A stretch of 37,415 nucleotides of DNA from a virus, in IMG/VR virus record IMGVR_UViG_3300032560_000060, positions 1-37,415 of that record, one strand, 5' to 3'. Made by a program: the position numbers and the translations under genes. The notes beneath the pieces are model-generated. The model was not told the DNA's origin. It worked only from the letters and a program-made list of their open reading frames with translations, and searched no databases. This document shows positions 1 to 37,415 of the stretch, one piece after another (the stretch's first letter is position 1; the number at the start of each line of letters is the position of its first letter).

Positions 1-92
1 CTGCAGATGGCCAGAGGCCGCCCACCAGGGGGCGCGGCAGGGGAGGGGCGGCGGTGCCAGGTTGAGCATCCCTCCAGTTTGCCCGGGACGGG

Positions 93-127
93 TCAGTCGT
101 TCCGCTTGAAGACCAGCTTGTAGCTGA
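93..127 (-). other. Displaced 3' end of the host gene used as attB
   Basis: Read on the minus strand, 127 to 93 encodes SYKLVFKRND followed by TGA in GC-rich host codons. The same peptide and stop are encoded at the right junction in AT-rich codons (37264-37295). This fragment is therefore the original end of the host gene, cut off from its promoter and 5' part by the insertion. It has no start codon of its own and should not be expressed as a gene. Confidence 0.85.
118..127. repeat. attL: attL core (10-bp direct repeat)
   Basis: TTGTAGCTGA is identical to 37289-37298. It lies where GC-rich host sequence gives way to AT-rich phage sequence and 231 bp upstream of the integrase start. Identity beyond the 10 bp is broken, although the translated host frame stays identical through the repeat (see host gene entries). 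Confidence 0.8.
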
Positions 128-358: not shown

Positions 359-1468
359 ATGTCCAAAAAATCACAGAAATCCCCTAATACAAAGCTGGTC
401 TATCATGCTGGTCTATCTACCAAACCATACCAAAATGATAACTATTACTACTTGTTTCAGATGGATAAGAAGAGATATGAAGGTAGCACAGGCTGTAAGA
501 TAAAGAAAGAGGCTGAACAATGGTTAAGAAGCTACAAAACAAAGTTAGCCTTACAGAAAGTAGATATTAAGTGTGATATGGGTAATACATTCAATGAAGT
601 ATTTGAAGAATATATCAAAATAAATAGAAATCAATTTTCAGATAAGTATGTTAAGAACATCAGAGCAGCATTTAAGCTTAATGTGCTTCCTTATATTGGT
701 GAAGTTCCAGTAGCTACCATTACATCAGATTTGTTAAAAGAAACACTGAATAAGTATATTGATAAGGGAAACTCAAAATCAGGTTATAATGTAATAGCAT
801 CTTATGTTAGAACCATTATGAACTTTGCTAATAAACAAGATTATCTAATAAAGAAGGTTCCAGAGCTACCACCACTGAAGGTTCAGAAGAAGAAAAAGAA
901 TATTCTTAATGAAGATAATGTAATACCATTCTTACAGGCAATTGATAAACAGAATAGGCCAAAGATATCTGTAATGGTAAGAGGTATGCTTTATTTTGGT
1001 TTGAGAGAGAATGAAGCAAGATTAATGAAATGGTCTAACTTTGACTTTAAGCAGGGAATATATACACCAGACAAGACAAAAAATTATGACTGTCCAGACC
1101 TTCCCTTTCCTTCTGAAATGCTCTGGCATCTGAACAAGCTAAAGCAGGTTAATCCTGAAGGTAATGATTGGGTAATCCTTGGGTATGGTGGAAAGCCTGT
1201 ATATGAACAATATGCCAGAAATGCTATTGCCCTTGCCTGTGCTACCATTGGGGTAGAAGGCATTACAAACCATAGGTTAAGGGCATCCTTCATTACCTTG
1301 CTTGCCAGAAATGGGACAGACCCTTTTATGGTAAAGGATTTGGCAAGACATTCAGACTTCAAAACTACCTTAATTTATATCAAGGGAGAGTTTAAGCCTA
1401 TTAAGAAAGCATCTGATAACCTATGGGACAAGATGTTAGACCAAAATAAGAAAGAAAATATTAGCTAA
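359..1468 (+). CDS. int: Tyrosine recombinase (phage integrase)
   Basis: A 369-residue site-specific recombinase that would catalyse integration and excision at the flanking att repeats. The visible catalytic set is R216 (GLRENE), probable K239, H305-x-x-R308 (HRLR), H331 (ARHSD) and the nucleophile Y340 (TTLIYIK), the normal spacing for the family. Residues 1-60 are basic and probably form the arm-binding domain; about 75-170 look like the SAM-like core-binding domain. The start is supported by an AGGAG site about 8 bases upstream. The gene points away from attL and ends before a strong terminator. In the circular genome it lies downstream of attP and the right-arm operon. Confidence 0.96.
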   Translation: MSKKSQKSPNTKLVYHAGLSTKPYQNDNYYYLFQMDKKRYEGSTGCKIKKEAEQWLRSYKTKLALQKVDIKCDMGNTFNEVFEEYIKINRNQFSDKYVKNIRAAFKLNVLPYIGEVPVATITSDLLKETLNKYIDKGNSKSGYNVIASYVRTIMNFANKQDYLIKKVPELPPLKVQKKKKNILNEDNVIPFLQAIDKQNRPKISVMVRGMLYFGLRENEARLMKWSNFDFKQGIYTPDKTKNYDCPDLPFPSEMLWHLNKLKQVNPEGNDWVILGYGGKPVYEQYARNAIALACATIGVEGITNHRLRASFITLLARNGTDPFMVKDLARHSDFKTTLIYIKGEFKPIKKASDNLWDKMLDQNKKENIS

Positions 1469-9800: not shown

Positions 9801-10205
9801 TTAAGCAGATAATATGGTTCTTTTTACTAAATCAGCATGAATTAGGGTATCAGCCATTGAAGCAATAGCATCTAATAGGTCTGTGGTAGGAACAGTAGCA
9901 GCTAATGGAGCTAAATCAGCACCCTGTAAGCTAATAGAGCCTGTATAGGGGTCCTGTCCATTCATAGGGCCTGTAGGCAAAAAGTTGGTAGGCATAGTGG
10001 CAGCAGGAATATTTCTTTGAACCACATTTAGCTTATTACCAGAGGCATCAACAATATAATCTGTTCTTGAATACTGAATATTAGCAGAGAATGAAGCTAC
10101 TAAATGCCCATTAGCATCTGGTGACATTGTTCTGTTAAAGCTGATATTGTTAGCAGCATACTCTGAAGCAAGAGTAGCTGAGGTGTTAGGTAGGGTTACT
10201 GACAT
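9801..10205 (-). CDS. Hypothetical protein of the fibre cluster
   Basis: 134 residues starting MSVTLPNTSATLASEYAANN, with no membrane segment. The first half is beta-like with polar spacing; the end is helical (DLLDAIASMADTLIHADLVKR). GAGGA lies about 6 bases before the ATG, and an AGAATTACTT motif is 17 bases upstream. It follows the giant fibre gene closely and is probably a virion or fibre-assembly protein. Confidence 0.6.
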   Translation of the reverse strand: MSVTLPNTSATLASEYAANNISFNRTMSPDANGHLVASFSANIQYSRTDYIVDASGNKLNVVQRNIPAATMPTNFLPTGPMNGQDPYTGSISLQGADLAPLAATVPTTDLLDAIASMADTLIHADLVKRTILSA

Positions 10206-10222
10206 TTTATTTCCTCATATAA

Positions 10223-10232
10223 AAGTAATTCT
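10223..10232 (-). promoter_or_regulatory. AGAATTACTT motif upstream of the 10205 start
   Basis: Copy of the recurrent leftward motif just after the giant fibre gene and before a separate GAGGA ribosome binding site. Confidence 0.5.
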
Positions 10233-10236
10233 TGTA

Positions 10237-13200
10237 TTAATATTTGATTCTTGCAAAACCAGGTAATCCTGTTCCAGCAGAACCAGAGGTTCCACCACCT
10301 TTTAGAATGTTCTGACCCTTACCACCAGAACCATATACTTGTGAGCCCTGTCCTGCATCATAGGGAGACACTCCACCAAGACCACCGGGCTGAGTGGATC
10401 CACCACCAGAATTATAGGTAGCACCATCATTTCCACTATTACCTGTGCAATTCCAGCCCAATTCAGGAGTAGGATAGTAAACAGTTCCTACACCAGAGCC
10501 AACAGCACCAGTTTGACCTGTAGCAGTAGCACCTACAGAGGCAGAATATAGAATGGTTCCAGAGTAAGAGCCTGTTCTAAAGTTTACTGTTCCAGAATCA
10601 AAGCTAATGTAATAGGTAGTAGCTGGAGTTACAGATATTACCTTTTGAATATAATTACCAGCAGCACCACCACCACCCGCCCAAGCCAAAGATGTTCCAG
10701 GACCACCATCACCACCTTTACCTTGTAGAGTTAGGGTTACTGAAGTAATACCTTGAGGACAAACCCAAGTTCCATTAGAAGTCCAAGTAGGAGTATTACC
10801 CTTGACTCTATTTGCAATTACAGCAGCTTGTAAACCACCTACATTAACATCACCACCAATTTCCATATAGCAATTGGTATTATTTGTTCCATCCAAATAA
10901 TATGTAGTAAATGGATTACCAGCTAACTTAAATCCTACAGGTGCAGTTGAACCTGAACCAGCAGCATAGGCGGAAGAAGTAATTACTGAAGTTGTTACAA
11001 TGTTGGCTGCTAAAGCCTGGGCACCAATAGCACCAGCAGATATTAGACCAGCAGTAATTTTAGGCTGAACTGTATTTGCTACATTCTGCCAAATCCAATT
11101 GGAACCATTCCAAAGATACATTCCACCTTTATCACCATTAGAATCAGTTCCATCTGTAGCATACCAATAAGGGTAGAAATTGGTTGGAGGTGTCCAAGCA
11201 TACATTTGGCTTAATGTTCCTACCTTTGGGGCAGTAGCATTAGCAACAGCAGCCTGTAATGTAGCTGCATTAGTTCCAATGTTACCCATATGTAGAACAA
11301 GGTTATTATTATAGCCTAAATATAGGTCCATATTAGGATTAGAAGAATCCCAGGCACCTGTAGAATTACAATTAGCTATTTTTGCTTCATTACTTGTTAG
11401 ATTACCAAAACCAATATATTGACCTGGATTATTTAGAATCAAACTTGCAGAATTAGCATTATAACCCATTACTGTTAATTGAGTTCCGCCAAATGTTACA
11501 TTACCATTTGCTTGTGTTCTCATTGTCCAAATAGTTTGTGCTGAATTGAGAATACCAAACTCATAAGAAGAACTGGTAGGATTATTAGCCCAAATTGTAG
11601 TTCCAGTAGCACCAGACCAATAATTTGTAATTTGGGCACCATTAGAAACATTAAACCAGGAAGAATTAAAAGAACCATTTGCTGTTACATTTCCTGAAGT
11701 ATCACATTTCATCCAATAAGAATTATAATCTGTTCCAATAAATGTATAGCTACAAGTATCACCACCACCAAAGATACCAAAAGCACCAAGAAAGACACTA
11801 TTATCTGATTTTCTGGTTCCAAACATTTCAGACCATCCACCAGAGCCAGCCCTAATACCAACATATCCATAATTAGGATTAATAGTAATAGCTCTGTCAT
11901 TAGATGGACCAATGACAACAGTCATATCTGTATTTAATTGAAGGGTAAGATTTCCATTAGAGGCAGATTGACCATCTGCTGTATTATTTGTAAAGAATTG
12001 ACCATAACCACCAGTAGCAGTATTTCCAAACCTAATTTCATTTACACCATTATTACCAAGTTGTAAAACACCTGTTCCACCACCTCTTGAACAAAGTTGT
12101 GTAGTATAGGTGGTAGGATAAGAATAGTTAGCTATAGTTAATGAATTATAAGCATTAATAGTTCCATCAACCTGTAATAACAAGTCACCAGGAGGTGTAG
12201 ACCATACACCAGTTGATGTGACTTGACCTAATCTTAATTTATGGTTTGTATTATCATTACCAATACCAAAATAGTTAGAACCTAACCAATTTCCTACATA
12301 TCCTGCTGTTGTATAATTGATAGCAATGGTATATGGTGTCTGAGCCCAAGATGTAGCATTAATTCCAGAAGCTGATACTGTTCCAGGTGTAGTTATATTC
12401 TGATAGAAGTAATGTCCTGAAGAACCTGCTGTATCATAATGACAATATGAACTATTTAACATTCCAATCTTTGTTAAACCTGATGCTGTTTGAATACCTA
12501 AGTTATTTAAACCTACAGAACTCACCTGAACAGAATTAGGCATTAATAAAGCACCAGCAAAGTATGCTGAACCTGAACCTTGTAAACTTAGAACTTGAGT
12601 AGAACCAAGCATAAAGTTAATGGCGGTAGTGCTGGCAGTATAACTATTTCTAAAAGTAAGGGCAGTATTTCCTAAATCACTATAATCTATTGAACCTTGC
12701 CAGGAAGAGTTATTACCAAGTAAAATACACCCTCTTCCACCACCAGCACCGGAAAATTGACTCCAACCATAGAATAATGCTTGCTGATAACTTGCATTAT
12801 TAGCTGTCAATGAACCCATGCTAACAGGGCCACCAAATAAGCTTTGTGCTGCTCCTGGACTATAAATAGCATAGGTATTTGTTACTGTTATATTTGGAAT
12901 AGCTGTATTATCTTCAATCCACAAACCAGCAAGATTAGTTAATGTATTTCCAGTAATTGTTCCTGTTGTTGGTCTGGGAGCATAAAAAGTGGCAGAGTTT
13001 GTAAGTGTTGCAGCAGAATTAGCTCCTCCAGGATTATTACCTAATAGTAACTGACCACCAACAGCATATAAATTAGTATGTACACCACCTGCAACTGCAA
13101 CTCTACCCCAAACACCATAAGAGTTTGTTATTGTTCCAGAACCTCCTGAAAGTATTGCAAATCCATAAGCTCCTACTACATAGCCAGAAGTGCTACTACC

Positions 13201-37106: not shown

Positions 37107-37229
37107 TGTGTAGGGTAAAGGCATTTCAGGATTTTCTACCCTACACCACCCTACATTTGCCTATTGGTGGTGGAACTCTCTCTTGGACATAAAGTATTGA
37201 TTTAAAAGCACCCTACACCATCCTACAGA
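37107..37229. repeat. Arm-type integrase site candidates (ACCCTACACC repeats)
   Basis: Two tandem pairs of 10-mers lie at 37138-37157 (ACCCTACACC plus ACCCTACATT) and 37210-37229 (ACCCTACACC plus ATCCTACAGA), with an inverted single copy at 37107-37116. One related copy is at 189-198 in the left arm. Tandem 10-bp-phased direct repeats 60-190 bp from the core fit the arm-type sites bound by the N-terminal domain of tyrosine integrases. The 37006-37263 interval contains no gene. Confidence 0.6.
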
Positions 37230-37263: not shown

Positions 37264-37415
37264 TCAATCATTTCTCTTAAAAACTAATTTGTAGCTGAAG
37301 GGGTTGTCCAGCTTCGGATGGGTACAGGTCACCTGGAGGGCCAGGGAATCCCCGTCCTTCCGCATGGAATAGACGTACTTCAGGGTGTAGTCATCTCCCC
37401 TGAGGGTCTGGATCA
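37264..37415 (-). CDS. Host protein gene, 3' part, with phage-supplied C-terminus
   Basis: Open minus-strand frame entering from the right edge (IQTLRGDDYTLKYVYSMRKD, then GDSLALQVTCTHPKLDNPFS) and finishing YKLVFKRND plus TGA. Codons up to the att core are GC-rich host codons. From there the last eight codons are AT-rich and come from the phage, yet give exactly the residues of the displaced host end at 93-127. The insertion therefore leaves the protein unchanged. I do not recognise the family; only 49 codons are visible. Confidence 0.8.
   Translation of the reverse strand, partial: IQTLRGDDYTLKYVYSMRKDGDSLALQVTCTHPKLDNPFSYKLVFKRND
37289..37298. repeat. attR: attR core (10-bp direct repeat)
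   Basis: TTGTAGCTGA is identical to 118-127. It is embedded in codons of the host gene that continues into the right flank. Confidence 0.8.

Follow-up and report, generated by a model that had tools for sequence, protein, structure and literature searches.

Synonymous recoding of a host protein's C-terminus at a prophage attachment site in Holophagaceae

The window analysed here is the whole of IMG/VR record IMGVR_UViG_3300032560_000060 (positions 1-37415; 37,415 nucleotides), and it is a siphovirus-like prophage inside a Holophagaceae (Acidobacteriota) chromosome. The prophage interrupts the 3' end of a host protein gene, and the end displaced by integration and the end supplied by the phage encode the same peptide in different codons. 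Direct observation covers the two junctions, the empty site, the gene itself, the shared peptide and the termination of similarity at the stop codon. We read the site as the place where a temperate siphovirus-like phage attaches, its attP carrying an old, host-derived gene tail, with the peptide selected in lysogens and the synonymous sites drifted (probability roughly 0.85). The features of the window are as follows.

1-92, minus strand: host DNA 3' of the gene, with the beginning of an alpha/beta-hydrolase gene
93-127, minus strand: displaced host tail plus core, the tail reading AAG CTG GTC TTC AAG CGG AAC GAC TGA; host side matching the empty-site genome L002 at 126/127 bases
118-127, minus strand: 10-bp core, left junction
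128-37288, no strand: prophage body, with gpA-type terminase, lambda-family portal, protease-capsid fusion, tape measure and collagen-like tail fibre
359-1468, plus strand: tyrosine integrase, 369 aa (Pfam PF00589, E=1.3e-16; PF22022; PF14659)
37108-37227, no strand: cluster of CCCTACAC-type repeats (37108 minus, 37139 plus, 37211 plus), candidate integrase arm-type sites
37264-37288, minus strand: phage-supplied tail past the core, (AA)A TTA GTT TTT AAG AGA AAT GAT TGA, encoding K L V F K R N D stop
37267-37415, minus strand: C-terminal 49 codons of the host gene plus phage-supplied end; its host sequence matches L002 at all of 118 bp
37289-37298, minus strand: 10-bp core, right junction, TCAGCTACAA read on the minus strand; the crossover presumably lies within it

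The phage part of the window (~37.16 kb) has a GC content of 36% and a GC3 of 0.22, compared to ~68% GC in the host chromosome. Host DNA accounts for the left 127 bp, core counted, and for 117 bp past the core on the right, and these flanks were assigned to Holophagaceae. The integrase gene adjoins the attachment site, starting ~230 bp from the core and directed into the prophage. Within the repeat cluster, ACCCTACACCAyCCTACA is found at 37138 and 37210, and MCCTACAC occurs seven times in the window against 1.5 expected, four of them near the attachment site. The other side of the attachment site has a single weak site, ACCTACAC, at 190-197. A search of positions 1-37415 for the phage's own tRNA genes returned none. 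Of three genes dispersed in the phage (18570-19046, 31364-31906 and 36341-36823), two are GIY-YIG homing-endonuclease-like and one is an HNH gene. An ORF at 31928-32602 matches sigma-70 region 2 weakly, below the cut-off, and might encode a sigma factor of the phage. Two further metagenome records contain this phage, L107 and L035 (3300020719_000077 and 3300000439_003246), and the stretches compared were identical.

Read on the minus strand, the displaced host end on the left (93-127) is TCAGCTACAAGCTGGTCTTCAAGCGGAACGACTGA and the phage-supplied end on the right (37264-37298) is TCAGCTACAAATTAGTTTTTAAGAGAAATGATTGA. Both translate as S-Y-K-L-V-F-K-R-N-D-stop. The core, TCAGCTACAA in gene sense, is identical at both junctions over 10 bp and covers codons S-Y-K. 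From K to the stop codon, 9 of 27 bases differ between host and phage tails and all nine differences are synonymous, falling at codon positions 3, 1, 3, 3, 3, 1, 3, 3 and 3. The initial annotation had reported exactly this from the two ends encoding KLVFKRND and TGA, together with the 10-bp core, and we confirmed the observation as real. Identity by codon position was 7/9 at first, 9/9 at second and 2/9 at third positions; both first-position changes lie at synonymous Leu and Arg first positions. Beyond the tail, attP and attB agreed at background level, with 16/60 bases upstream (two of these being core bases) and 11/60 downstream, and their similarity terminates exactly at the stop codon.

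To either side of the prophage lies what was a single locus. In the close relative L002 both flanks are contiguous (118/118 and 126/127 bp matching), and one uninterrupted gene crosses the junction position with host codons all through, as the initial annotation had expected of an empty site. Junctions and empty site together uphold its proposal that the phage integrates into the 3' end of a protein-coding gene and restores the peptide. The upstream part of the host gene extends beyond the window; a full-length copy lies at ~2468-3016 in L035, a second assembly, in which the recoded tail is also present and the host flank matches L002 at 99.3% identity over 3 kb. Occupied and empty sites are therefore present in one species-level group. 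The right junction thus recurs in L035, and the left junction is known from this assembly alone.

Of the 32 genome loci that could be judged, 28 had the same downstream region directly after the gene. Four genomes carry insertions after the gene, and these were rejected as other phages at the site. They are a short hairpin straight behind the gene (L021, past 10150), an IS transposase insertion in the same place (L024, ~10180-12085), a small 0.3-kb inverted-repeat element with ends GAGCGTGTCCAAGTAATCGATAGGGGCTGCG, also straight behind it (L027, ~1305-1632), and a Rhs-like rearrangement that places a Rhs-like repeat gene immediately 3' of the host gene (L029, 10145-11657), where the tail reads KLVFKRDG. 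In L002 the ATG of an alpha/beta-hydrolase gene lies ~24 bp 3' of the host gene's stop codon, so integration may also separate two co-transcribed genes, the host gene and the hydrolase.

A matching tail is not expected by chance. The probability that a random 27-mer of phage composition encodes KLVFKRND plus a stop codon is ~5e-12, and the chance of such a tail anywhere on both strands of the window is 4e-7. When neutral change was simulated to nine differences, the peptide was retained in 0 of 300,000 runs; under the most favourable model, with transitions only, the retained fraction was 7.5e-6. On that ~5e-12 probability and these simulations a chance origin was rejected.

The codons of the phage tail are those of the phage: six of the eight are the codon it uses most and two the codon it uses second most. 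The product of phage codon frequencies was 0.017 for the phage tail and 1.7e-7 for the host tail, in agreement with the earlier suggestion that the tail had drifted to phage composition. The same codons could result from recent capture, in which the phage took the tail from another, AT-rich host whose copy of the gene was already written in them, with no long drift in the phage. The gap between 36% GC in the phage and ~68% in the host leaves room for this, as the phage's usual host might be another organism. However, the phage tail has at least 7 differences from each of the 32 natural Holophagaceae host tails, which differ among themselves by a mean of 3.1 and at most 8, and the lowest GC among host tails is 0.38 compared to 0.17 in the phage tail. 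Searches for the gene in Holophagaceae and, elsewhere, with short exact patterns turned up no AT-rich organism that has it. We consider recent capture unlikely.

Retention of the similarity for DNA recognition by the integrase, with the coding match as a by-product, fares worse. Tyrosine integrases bind inverted sites beside the overlap, and attB and attP do share 18 of 27 bases there. The similarity, however, runs for 25 bases on one side and is absent past the core on the other, the mismatches occupy synonymous positions only, and the match stops exactly at the stop codon; we regard this explanation as very improbable. A derivation of the two ends from two paralogous host genes, or from a chimeric assembly, can be set aside almost completely: the host does carry a distant paralogue (32% identity), but this ends in ...YALSFGR and was rejected as the origin of the tail, which excludes the source of one end that the initial annotation had itself raised against its reading; moreover both flanks are contiguous at one locus in L002, the right junction was found again in a second assembly, and the AT-rich tail runs on into phage DNA without a break.

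Selection on the peptide, as the old host-derived tail would require, is consistent with what could be predicted of the host protein. It has 183 residues, looks secreted and had no family match in a Pfam search. A fold from 4 sequences was poor, and we therefore used an AlphaFold2 fold from 27 sequences (pLDDT 85), which gave a barrel of beta strands in which two helices follow the first strand. This predicted topology would fit the helix-turn-helix that follows strand 1 in the fatty-acid-binding-protein (FABP) fold. Among the 50 Foldseek matches to solved structures listed, nearly all were fatty-acid or retinoid binding proteins (E ~1e-6 to 1e-5), though with TM scores of only ~0.6, a moderate level, and rmsd ~5. 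The protein is predicted to be a secreted, FABP-like barrel, with the KLVFKRND tail as its last strand. The tail is also the most conserved stretch of the protein, with a mean identity of 0.94 compared to 0.47-0.92 elsewhere, and on this model the barrel would be expected to open if that strand were lost. Host tails do tolerate some substitutions (KRSD, KRKE, KRID, FMRND), and the last residues are therefore not under absolute constraint. The gene was found in 47 of 77 Holophagaceae genomes (E below 1e-40). That spread shows use rather than essentiality, and of the earlier claim that the gene is important the conservation stands, the importance itself being an interpretation.

Back-translated YKLVFKRND and left-junction patterns were searched in IMG/VR and revealed no other phage with the tail and no contig with a free attP joint. 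Scans with the integrase, the host tail and the terminase for other phages at the site returned only fragments of the same phage. Because no second phage was found, selection is inferred from one attP lineage. Holophagaceae integrases elsewhere are ~25-39% identical and many adjoin tRNA genes. A scan for peptide-tail matching recovered ten consecutive residues at the present site (score 20). Applied to six other Holophagaceae integrase regions without a nearby tRNA, the same scan gave as its best result a short weak match (score 10) and no peptide-restoring tail.

Under the preferred reading of an old tail kept by selection, the tyrosine integrase would recombine within the 10-bp core in the last codons of the Holophagaceae gene. 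Recombination would remove the host's last eight codons and join on the attP segment with the same KLVFKRND-stop, so that the host protein would stay intact after integration. An ancestor of the phage probably acquired the tail from a host of the Holophagaceae group, most likely via imprecise excision. Lysogens with an intact last strand would have fared best, which would have kept the amino acids in place while codon choice at synonymous sites drifted towards that of the phage. For the integrase to recognise its DNA the core region would be enough, leaving the tail bases free to change. We also lean, with less assurance, towards a broader view. In it the attP tail is a gene fragment carried by the phage, on which purifying selection acts at the protein level and in lysogeny only, and its synonymous sites are in equilibrium with the phage genome; recognition of DNA and restoration of the protein would then be fully uncoupled, and attachment-site finders that need nucleotide identity would miss such sites.

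As a compact case, the site allows coding and DNA-recognition constraint on an attachment site to be separated directly. Protein-restoring attachment sites may be under-counted, since a 10-bp core is too short to be picked up by searches for long direct repeats; matching of C-terminal peptides, which recovers the present case, could find them.

The closest known systems are the prophages e14 and phage 21 in icd, the isocitrate dehydrogenase gene of E. coli, which likewise occupy the 3' part of a protein gene, use a short core (11 bp) and supply a replacement C-terminus with mostly synonymous changes. The initial annotation had held that icd sites keep identity at the nucleotide level, and this was not borne out. 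When recomputed for E. coli K-12, the e14-supplied tail differed from the host tail at 12 of 165 bases; ten of these changes were synonymous and the other two conservative. Published figures agree with the 12 differences and 10 synonymous changes, and place the e14 crossover within 11 bp (PMC4759930, PMC11148124). Five icd phage tails other than that of e14 had 6-15 base differences, 2-6 of them in non-synonymous codons; for phage 21, 11 of 14 differences were synonymous. The icd tails span 54 codons with 91-96% DNA identity and a few amino-acid changes, whereas the present tail has 8 codons, 67% DNA identity and no amino-acid change.

The shortness of the core, to which the initial annotation had drawn attention, is real at 10 bp and yet not unusual for a tyrosine integrase. 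Fionnbharth, with an attachment site in a tRNA gene and tRNA-dependent lysogeny, also has a 10-bp core and compensates for the broken host gene (PMC10865867). At that and other tRNA sites the phage either rebuilds the RNA gene or provides a separate tRNA in its place, whereas here a protein end is rebuilt at the codon level. In the available part of its description, PAISt likewise has a very short core, an 8-bp palindrome, at the 3' end of the protein gene bacA, and unlike the present prophage it is a genomic island (PMC4057263). The principle of a phage-restored C-terminus is already known from the icd prophages, and the present case differs in degree, its tail being much shorter and more diverged. 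It is an unusually clean, fully recoded form, in a host group new for such sites.
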